Origin: Marinobacter sp.
GTDB taxonomy: Bacteria; Pseudomonadota; Gammaproteobacteria; Pseudomonadales; Oleiphilaceae
DNA length: 64,000 bases
Direction of reading: 5' to 3'
NCBI RefSeq assembly: GCF_014859525.1
Contig: NZ_JACUUB010000006.1
Span: 1-64,000, forward strand
A program made the translations under genes and the position numbers. Shown here piece after piece: positions 7,530-11,934 of this stretch; position 1 is the first letter of the stretch, and the number at the start of each line of letters is the position of its first letter. The notes below the pieces were generated by a model. It had not been told where the DNA came from. It did not search any database and was given only the letters and a program-made list of their open reading frames with translations.

Positions 7530-7602
7530 TTACCTATGGAAGAGCGCAAAACCGGCAATTCGTTTGATAGAACGCAGCCGGTCCAGAATTCCGGAGGCAG
7601 TC

Positions 7603-9206: not shown

Positions 9207-11108
9207 ATGGCATTTAATACAGGTTTGAGTGGGCTTAGGGCTGCTGCGGTAGATCTGGACGTAACCGGCAACAATATTGCCAATGCCAGCACCGTGGGTT
9301 TCAAGGGCAGTAAGGTACAGTTTGGCGACTTATACGCCAGTGGCTTTCTCAGTGGTGGTACCAACCCGATTGGTGACGGCGTTCGGGTGCAGGATGTTAC
9401 GCAGTCGTTCGGGCAGGGCAATATCAGCTTTACCGATAATGGCCTGGATATGGCGATCAGTGGTGACGGCTTCTTTATTCTCAATAACAACGGCGAAATC
9501 CGTTACTCCCGTGCCGGTCAATTCGGCATCGATAAAGACGGCTTTGTCACCAACAATCAGAACATGAGGGTACAAGGCTTCACCGCCGACGATGACGGTA
9601 ATCTGTCCGGTATTCGTGGTGACCTGCAGATCGAGACGGACAACCTGGCGCCACGCCGCACCACCAACCTTCGGTCTGACCTGAACCTGGATTCGCGAGA
9701 GTCGGTGCTGGAAAGCCGGGTGGTGGATTTTCAGACCGTTTCAATGGGCGACCTTACTGCGGATGATGTGTTCAGGGTGGTGTATTCTGACGGCACCAGT
9801 TCGCCGGATATCACGCTTGATCAGAACCTTTCGGCAAGAGACGCGGCGGGTATCATCAACCAGCAGCGCGGCCTGTCAGCCTCTGCAACGACGGCGGTTA
9901 TCCTTGGTGACGAGTTTGATATCGGTGCACTAAATGACGCACTTTCACAAAGTGATACGGAATTCCGGCTTGAACTTGACGGCCAGAACGTGCCCCTTTC
10001 TCTAAACGGGGTCAGTTCGCTTCAAGGTCTGGCGGATGCGATTAATGCCTCCAGTGCTACGAGTCTGTCTGCCTCTCTCGTGGATGGTGGCAATGACATC
10101 CGCATCATTGATAACCGCGGGTCGAACGTCGGGATCAGTTTTGCCAGTGTGGCTGCAGGCGTGGATCAGCCTCTTGAGGCGTTTGCGGGCGATGTGAACA
10201 TTCAATCCGATCGCACGGTTCAGGACATCCAGCCGGTTGGCGCCAACAGCGAAATCGCTGACGCGTTTGCGGGGGGCGATCTCCGTATTACTAATTCTTT
10301 CAACCCGCTGGACCAGCGTACCTACAATCACGCCACATCCACCACTATTTTTGACAGCCTGGGTAATTCCCATGAGCTTACCCAGTTCTATGTAAAAAAC
10401 CCGTCGCCGGGTAACGGTATCGGAGTGAGTGAATGGTCGGTCTACCTGCAGATTGATGGCGAGCTGGTCGCAGGCACAGACACGTCGCCGTTCACCGCAA
10501 GATTCAATGAGAGTGGTGTGTTGCAGTCGGTGAATGGAGACCCTAACGGCGAGATAGTGGTGGCGGATTGGGTCCCGAAAGATCCGAATGGTGAGCCTAA
10601 CGGTGCTGATGGTCCGCCGTTGCCAGGTCAGGAAGTGGTGACACCGATTCCGGAACCGCCCACCACGTCTGCATTCGTTGTTGATCTGGGTAACACCACC
10701 CAGTTCGGTGCGGCCTTTGGCGTGAACGATCAGCGCCAGAACGGTTTCAGCACGGGCCGGTTGTCTGGCCTGGATGTTTCTGATCAGGGCGTGATCTTCG
10801 CCCGCTACACCAACGGCCAGTCAAAATCGCTCGGCCAGGTTGCCTTGGCGTCATTCAAGAATACCAATGGTCTGTCGCCGGTCGGCGAGACTACCTGGGT
10901 AGAAACGTTTGAGTCTGGCCAGCCGATCATTGGTGCGCCGGATACCGGAACTCTGGGTTCGATCAAGGCGAGTTCCGTAGAAGAGTCCAACGTGGACTTG
11001 TCGGCCGAGCTGGTCAACCTGATCATTGCCCAGCGTAACTATCAGGCCAACGCCAAGACTATTGAAACCTCCGATGCGGTCACTCAGACCATTATCAACC
11101 TCCGCTAA
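9207..11108 (+). CDS. flgE: Flagellar hook protein FlgE (enlarged)
   Basis: The main hook subunit. The N-terminal MAFNTGLSGLRAAAVDLDVTGNNIANASTVGFKGS and C-terminal VDLSAELVNLIIAQRNYQANAKTIET are the coiled-coil D0/D1 elements of the family. At 633 residues it is clearly longer than the 400-460 usual in E. coli and Pseudomonas. The extra ~180 residues lie in the surface-exposed middle (about 160-340) and include an LADAINASSATSLSASLVDG stretch resembling the hook-IN/flagellin-IN motif of filament proteins. Last gene transcribed from the flgB promoter, with the flgF promoter just after it. Confidence 0.94.
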   Translation: MAFNTGLSGLRAAAVDLDVTGNNIANASTVGFKGSKVQFGDLYASGFLSGGTNPIGDGVRVQDVTQSFGQGNISFTDNGLDMAISGDGFFILNNNGEIRYSRAGQFGIDKDGFVTNNQNMRVQGFTADDDGNLSGIRGDLQIETDNLAPRRTTNLRSDLNLDSRESVLESRVVDFQTVSMGDLTADDVFRVVYSDGTSSPDITLDQNLSARDAAGIINQQRGLSASATTAVILGDEFDIGALNDALSQSDTEFRLELDGQNVPLSLNGVSSLQGLADAINASSATSLSASLVDGGNDIRIIDNRGSNVGISFASVAAGVDQPLEAFAGDVNIQSDRTVQDIQPVGANSEIADAFAGGDLRITNSFNPLDQRTYNHATSTTIFDSLGNSHELTQFYVKNPSPGNGIGVSEWSVYLQIDGELVAGTDTSPFTARFNESGVLQSVNGDPNGEIVVADWVPKDPNGEPNGADGPPLPGQEVVTPIPEPPTTSAFVVDLGNTTQFGAAFGVNDQRQNGFSTGRLSGLDVSDQGVIFARYTNGQSKSLGQVALASFKNTNGLSPVGETTWVETFESGQPIIGAPDTGTLGSIKASSVEESNVDLSAELVNLIIAQRNYQANAKTIETSDAVTQTIINLR

Positions 11109-11124
11109 CGCGATTCCATAAATA

Positions 11125-11140
11125 TGGCATGACTCCTGCA
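11125..11140 (+). promoter_or_regulatory. Sigma-54 promoter of the flgFGHIJKL operon
   Basis: TGGCATGACTCCTGCA fits TGGCACG-N4-TTGCA with two mismatches, and GG and GC are ten bases apart. Transcription would start near base 11150, about 30 bases before the flgF ATG. Pseudomonas aeruginosa also splits the cluster into flgBCDE and flgFGHIJKL. Confidence 0.68.
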
Positions 11141-11175
11141 GGAAGACTGTAAACAGTCAAAATTCCGGCAGGAGT
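11132..11175 (+). promoter_or_regulatory. Hairpin that pairs the flgF ribosome-binding site
   Basis: ACTCCTGC (11132-11139) is the exact reverse complement of GCAGGAGT (11168-11175), which contains the flgF ribosome-binding site CAGGAG. Inside lie GGAA/TTCC and GACTG/CAGTC arms around a TAAA loop, giving 17 base pairs in total with one mismatch and one AAAA bulge. The 5' arm overlaps the -12 region of the sigma-54 promoter, so only transcripts entering from flgE can form the whole stem. The pairing is seen; the regulatory reading is inference. Confidence 0.6.
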
Positions 11176-11181
11176 TTGCCC

Positions 11182-11934
11182 ATGGATAAAGCTCTCTATA
11201 TTGGAATGTCTGGTGCCAAGCAGAACATGCTGGCCCAGCGTGCCCATGCCAACAACCTGGCAAACGTCAACACCACCGGCTTCAAGAAGGATTTTGCCCA
11301 GGCCCGCAGTATGCCTGTGTTCGGTGAGCACCACCCAACCCGTGCTTACGCCATGACAGAGCGGCCAGGTACGGACCTCACTGCCGGTGCCTTGATGGAC
11401 ACCGGCCGCAAACTGGACGTGGCAGTAGAGCGTGACGGCTGGCTGGCGGTTCAGAACGATCTGGGCGAGGAAGTGTTTACCCGCAGTGGCAGTTTGCAGA
11501 TTGATGTGAACGGTCTGGTCAGGCTGGCCAGTGGCGAGCTAGTACTCGGTAATGGCGGCCCGGTGGCTTTGCCCCCCTTTGACAACCTGCAGGTCGGTTC
11601 AGATGGCACTATTTCTATCGTGCCTGTGGGCGGTCCGCCGGATCAGCTCATTGAAGTAGACCGCCTGAAAATGGTTAACCCGCCAGCGACGGCGCTGGAA
11701 AAAGGCCTTGATGGTTTCATTCGCAGGAAGCCTGACCAGGCCATTGATGGTCCCGAACCACCGGATGCCGCCATGCGAGTGGCCACCGGATTTCTGGAAA
11801 GTTCTAACGTCAATGCGGTGGAAGAAATGATCGCTAACTTGCAGCTCTCCCGGCAATACGAGATGCAGGTAAAGGTAATGTCCACGGCAAAGGAAAATTC
11901 TGAGGCGGCGGCACGACTGTTGCAGAACCTCTGA
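11182..11934 (+). CDS. flgF: Flagellar proximal rod protein FlgF
   Basis: A 250-residue rod protein of the FlgE/F/G family. It carries MDKALYIGMSGAKQNMLAQRAHANNLANVNTTGFKKDFAQ at the N-terminus and the C-terminal GFLESSNVNAVEEMIANLQLSRQYEMQVKVM helix. ATG 11182 with CAGGAG seven bases upstream is chosen over the ORF-track TTG at 11176. Its ribosome-binding site lies in the 3' arm of a strong hairpin. First gene of flgFGHIJKL. Confidence 0.95.
   Translation: MDKALYIGMSGAKQNMLAQRAHANNLANVNTTGFKKDFAQARSMPVFGEHHPTRAYAMTERPGTDLTAGALMDTGRKLDVAVERDGWLAVQNDLGEEVFTRSGSLQIDVNGLVRLASGELVLGNGGPVALPPFDNLQVGSDGTISIVPVGGPPDQLIEVDRLKMVNPPATALEKGLDGFIRRKPDQAIDGPEPPDAAMRVATGFLESSNVNAVEEMIANLQLSRQYEMQVKVMSTAKENSEAAARLLQNL

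Follow-up and report, generated by a model that had tools for sequence, protein, structure and literature searches.

A hairpin joining a sigma-54-like promoter to the flgF ribosome-binding site, a candidate translational insulator in Marinobacter

Background

In the lysozyme gene (e) of phage T4, the late-promoter region encodes the 5' strand of a stem, and output from the long RNA is lower by about 100-fold (PMC3014915). In the T4 homing endonuclease genes (I-TevI) and other T4 genes, the early read-through RNA likewise folds over the ribosome-binding site, while the late RNA lacks the 5' strand (PMC2988022). Here we describe a hairpin between the flagellar genes flgE and flgF of Marinobacter that resembles the gene e arrangement: the promoter region of the downstream gene supplies the 5' strand of the stem, read-through RNA would be silent, and the local RNA, as predicted for flgF, starts beyond the arm. 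Unlike gene e, this hairpin belongs to a host flagellar operon and a sigma-54 promoter, and the -12 element is itself the arm. A further difference is that both flagellar promoters are probably under one regulator, hence dose rather than time would be insulated.

A cellular parallel reportedly exists in Bacillus subtilis, where the sigma-factor-dependent translational activation of McCormick et al. (2021) is said to involve an alternative sigma factor producing a shortened RNA without the inhibitory fold that would otherwise cover the start; it differs in sigma factor and genes, and is not homologous to the flgF pairing (the 'lock' below). In IS10 and IS50, read-through RNA hides the transposase start and the native RNA does not, but these are mobile elements with a sigma-70-type promoter. 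Relative to the T4 and B. subtilis systems, what sets flgF apart would be the use of a sigma-54 -12 element as an arm, together with an apparent exchange with terminators.

A stable hairpin in the flgE-flgF leader

The window, that is, the whole 64,000-nucleotide stretch of Marinobacter DNA that we analyzed, includes flgD, flgE, flgF, flgG and flgH. The hook protein gene flgE occupies positions 9207-11108 (NCBIfam FlgE match and open reading frame; stop codon 11106-11108), and the proximal rod protein gene flgF occupies 11182-11934 (NCBIfam FlgF match; conserved start codon), both on the forward strand, as are all features described below. The 5' arm of the hairpin lies 22 nucleotides past the flgE stop codon. 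Its outer stem joins ACTCCTGC at 11132-11139 to the exactly complementary GCAGGAGT at 11168-11175, followed by a middle helix of GGAA (11141-11144) with TTCC (11163-11166) and an apical helix of GACTG (11145-11149) with CAGTC (11154-11158), leaving a loop at 11150-11153. Together these make 17 pairs, and the stem is lengthened further by G11131-U11176 and by GGCA/UGCC. With the G-U pair included, the 5' arm, (G)ACTCCTGC at 11131-11139, consists of the promoter spacer and -12 element, and the 3' arm, GCAGGAGT(T) at 11168-11176, holds the flgF ribosome-binding site AGGAG, as judged from the pairing, the fold and a comparison of 111 genomes.

An earlier note on this DNA had given the coordinates of the two outer arms and the 17-pair stem, and all of this is correct. 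The predicted fold is far beyond chance: the leader from 11108 to 11190 has a minimum free energy of -34.2 kcal/mol versus -16.1 +/- 2.9 for shuffled sequences (z -6.3), none of 200 shuffled leaders matched the stability of the hairpin, and the hairpin is also predicted in a 181-nucleotide context (z -4.7). As in gene e, the ribosome-binding site thus sits in the 3' strand of a stable predicted stem, and the 5' strand lies in the promoter, upstream of a local start placed by consensus spacing. No intrinsic terminator was found at the hairpin, the stem lacking a U-run after it, and a search of the hairpin against Rfam covariance models gave no match at E values up to 1.

Two internal sigma-54-like promoters

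The promoter-like sequence at flgF is TGGCATGACTCCTGCA (11125-11140), with two mismatches to the sigma-54 consensus. A single match of this quality is not above chance in the window (14 observed versus 14.5 expected), and support for the promoter comes instead from its conservation: TGGCA-N6-CTGC, with GG and GC elements 10 nucleotides apart and close to TGGCACG-N4-TTGC, stands just 5' of flgF in all 111 Marinobacter upstream regions. This supports the suggestion of the earlier note that the 5' arm overlaps the -12 part of a sigma-54 promoter. The usual -12 to +1 spacing, 12 nucleotides past the -12 C, puts the predicted start at about A11151, within the loop, where the note had also placed it, and the local RNA would therefore lack the entire 5' arm. 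Since the 5' arm is the promoter itself, RNA made from that promoter must lack it. For the Vibrio cholerae flgF promoter, a requirement for RpoN and an activator has been shown (PMC7064773); the portion of that account with which our locus is compared, by description, reports no lock.

A second sigma-54-like promoter, CGGCACGACTGTTGCA, lies at 11909-11924 inside flgF, and flgG transcription is predicted to start from it at about 11935. Of the flgF positions with an amino acid conserved in 29 genomes, 100 have four- or six-fold degenerate codons, and only two of these use one codon throughout, Ala244 (GCA) and Leu247 (TTG), and these two are the -24 and -12 elements of CGGCACGACTGTTGCA. A conserved AAGCGGCAAA-N-GCCGC block follows 3' of this promoter and before flgG, in a leader extending to 12013, and flgG has its own ribosome-binding site. 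With a sigma-54-like promoter of its own inside flgF, flgG could be expressed without the flgF promoter, and so could the genes that follow it; the idea that rod, ring and junction protein synthesis is tied to the flgF promoter is not supported. If Rho ended the untranslated flgF RNA early, the lock could still lower the expression of downstream genes on the long RNA.

Conservation of the pairing

The comparison set consisted of 111 flgF upstream regions, all from the single genus Marinobacter. The spacer and -12 element read ACTCCTGC in 105 of the 111, with the spacer itself ACTC in 105, and the outer 8-bp complementarity between ACTCCTGC and GCAGGAGT is perfect in 102. Part of this complementarity is expected, as TGC comes from the -12 element and AGGAG from the ribosome-binding site, but the remainder is not. 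The flgB and fliE sigma-54 promoters of the same genus, used as controls, have variable spacers and carry T at the base before TGC (-14), which is always C at flgF. Among the three promoters, spacer conservation is confined to flgF, where the spacer pairs with the ribosome-binding site. Compact loci, defined by a flgE-flgF gap below 100 nucleotides, number 91; their variants all keep the pairing through G-U (L147, L184), and with these two G-U changes counted every 8-bp stem is complete.

Covariation of the arms in relatives, one of the checks put forward in the earlier note, is uninformative for the outer stem. Across 79 distinct sequences this stem has no compensatory changes; four of its pairs are invariant, and the two pairs after them change only to G-U. 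Because this stem hardly varies, covariation neither proves nor refutes the lock. The apical helix does show both-side changes, such as GACG/CGTC, in five and in two sequences, most of them from the M. segnicrescens clade. Within the inner part of the hairpin (11141-11166), relatives do not conserve the GGAA/TTCC helix, and the GACTG-TAAA-CAGTC hairpin is only partly conserved in sequence, with its structure mostly kept. Judging by these alignments, the conserved core of the hairpin is the outer eight to nine pairs; for a selected pairing, covariation is weak evidence and the flgB and fliE spacer controls are strong evidence. In one genome (G036, locus L043), a frameshift divides flgF into two overlapping matches, with one TGA, while promoter and hairpin are intact; a sequencing error is possible.

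Predicted accessibility and a proposed mechanism

Opening the flgF ribosome-binding site is predicted to cost 15.2 kcal/mol in read-through RNA versus 5.2 in local RNA (medians of the 111 genomes), and 14.7 versus 3.0 kcal/mol in the window. The predicted costs for the controls are 7.0 versus 3.3 kcal/mol at flgB and 3.5 versus 1.6 at fliE, and the predicted change in accessibility is roughly threefold larger at flgF than at the flgB control. The earlier note had the long RNA folding over the flgF start and the local RNA open. The large predicted difference agrees with this contrast, although the local RNA is better described as less structured, retaining a predicted 3-5 kcal/mol or so over the site.

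We propose that the hairpin acts as a translational insulator, separating the flgBCDE transcription unit from that of flgF in the manner of T4 gene e, and on balance we consider this probable. Polymerase reading past flgE would copy the flgF promoter into RNA, where the -12 element and spacer would pair with the ribosome-binding site and exclude 30S subunits, leaving the read-through flgF RNA translationally silent. RNA from the flgF sigma-54 promoter, predicted to start about 12 nucleotides 3' of the arm, would lack the stem and be translated. The dose of FlgF, a protein present in a few copies per flagellum, would then follow its own promoter instead of the abundant hook mRNA. One regulator controls both the flgB and the flgF operon in Vibrio and Pseudomonas (PMC7064773, PMC8036289), which makes insulation of flgF dose likelier than a timing switch. 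If this proposal is true, the device of phage T4 is at work in a cellular operon, and very economically, with one short stretch of DNA serving both as promoter -12 region and as antisense to the ribosome-binding site, and the separate protein doses of adjacent, co-regulated flagellar operons would be explained without a terminator. The same rule, promoter elements complementary to the next ribosome-binding site, could then be used to search for other internal promoters of this kind.

Alternative explanations

The stem might serve mainly as a 3'-end stabilizer or processing site for flgBCDE mRNA, with RNA ended within flgF by Rho or by cleavage and then trimmed back to the hairpin, which would shield the flgE mRNA, and the cover over the ribosome-binding site a by-product of scarce space. 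A very stable hairpin so soon after the flgE stop codon and lacking a U-run fits such a role, and the terminators that would otherwise make the 3' end are absent from the same loci. This role would not need the register that we see, in which the outer arms coincide exactly with the -12 element and the ribosome-binding site and their pairs are the constant ones, the inner stem being variable; we regard this role as unlikely. Plain coincidence, in which a favored promoter and a favored ribosome-binding site happened to be complementary and were inherited by descent, would fit a set of genomes from one genus and an outer stem without compensatory changes; however, flgF third codon positions and the flgB and fliE promoter spacers diverge freely in that genus, and we give this explanation very little credence.

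The repeat may instead work as DNA, its arms or inner motif binding a regulator of the FleR/FlrC type, with the RNA pairing incidental. In favor of this, CAGTCAAA-N2-TCCGG is constant where the partner arm is lost, and CGGCAA is the most enriched 6-mer in the flgF leaders of other genera (13 of 40, versus 0.8 expected). In the window, CGGCA starts at 7553, 11166 and 11969, in the flgB, flgF and flgG leaders and shortly 3' of the three flagellar sigma-54-like promoters. On this enrichment, CGGCA(A) may be an activator half-site of the FleR/FlrC type, and the candidate copy at flgF, CCGGCA at 11165-11170, overlaps the 3' arm. Such a half-site would explain the constancy of CCGGCAGGAG but not that of the 5' arm. 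A DNA site thus accounts for the 3' side only; it leaves unexplained both why the spacer is held complementary to the ribosome-binding site and why changes preserve pairing through G-U. As the whole explanation it seems rather improbable, a shade more so than the stabilizer. The inner motif GTCAAANNTCCGGC was also tried as a regulon marker and rejected, having 168+189 genome-wide sites with at most two mismatches versus 241+211 for the reversed control; among the best 30 sites, only the one at flgF lies behind a good sigma-54-like promoter beside a flagellar gene.

Terminators and locks across relatives

If the hairpin is a translational insulator, most related genera would be insulated by an intrinsic terminator 3' of flgE and compact Marinobacter loci, where the terminator is absent, by the lock alone. 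The promoter/ribosome-binding site duplex has a predicted energy of -22.6 kcal/mol in Marinobacter versus a median of -9.3 (mean -10.0) for 42 flgF promoters outside the genus; those 42 average -9.1 with swapped partners, so their true complementarity is near chance, and a general flgF lock across the order was rejected. Intrinsic terminator-like sites occur 3' of flgE at 24 of these 42 promoters, and no terminator was found between flgE and flgF in any of the 91 compact Marinobacter loci. Of 80 named loci, 77 could be scored for a broken lock. Twelve of these have a terminator-like hairpin, and the lock is broken in 5 of the 12, whereas it is broken in none of the other 65 (Fisher test, 4e-5, under a loose terminator rule and with phylogeny ignored). 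M. xestospongiae and MAG-100-type loci are examples that combine a terminator-like hairpin with a weak lock. Some loci with terminator-like sites keep an intact lock, which is therefore not only a terminator substitute.

In the flgF tree, long spacers belong mainly to basal lineages of the genus. A long-spacer lineage placed elsewhere, L372 (the genome of L033), is nested within compact lineages; a strong hairpin follows its flgE, its stem is weakened and its predicted lock is nearly gone (opening 4.9 versus 2.1 kcal/mol). From its position in the tree, we take this to be a lineage that regained a long spacer with a strong hairpin. The distribution of terminators and locks across relatives is the pattern that a translational insulator predicts. 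The switch proposed in the earlier note is supported to the extent that the arm is the promoter, the spacer is conserved, the predicted change in accessibility is large and broken locks occur only with a terminator-like hairpin; its extension to rod, ring and junction proteins does not. It is possible, and we put it forward tentatively, that Marinobacter swapped an intrinsic terminator for a translational insulator by shaping the downstream operon's promoter into a complement of that operon's ribosome-binding site, and that terminator and lock trade places in evolution. If so, the boundaries of transcription units could be kept by translation rather than by termination.

Hahella has a 61-nucleotide flgE-flgF gap without a sigma-54-like site and without such a hairpin. 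In an order-wide scan for CTCCTGC-N-GCAGGAG, the matches listed outside the genus looked scattered, and the flgF site recurs in Marinobacter. The M. segnicrescens clade (L364, L365, L366, L368 and L373) has flgE-flgF gaps of about 285-540 nucleotides, and those of L364, L366 and L373 contain an extended inverted repeat that may be a mobile or palindromic element. At L233 and L237, from other families, terminator and promoter overlap, the terminator T-run doubling as the spacer of the flgF sigma-54-like promoter (TGGTTTTTTTTTTGC). At L232, from another family, the Shine-Dalgarno complement is ACTCCTG; it covers about -7 to -1 relative to the predicted start, falls outside the core promoter and may be an independent lock.
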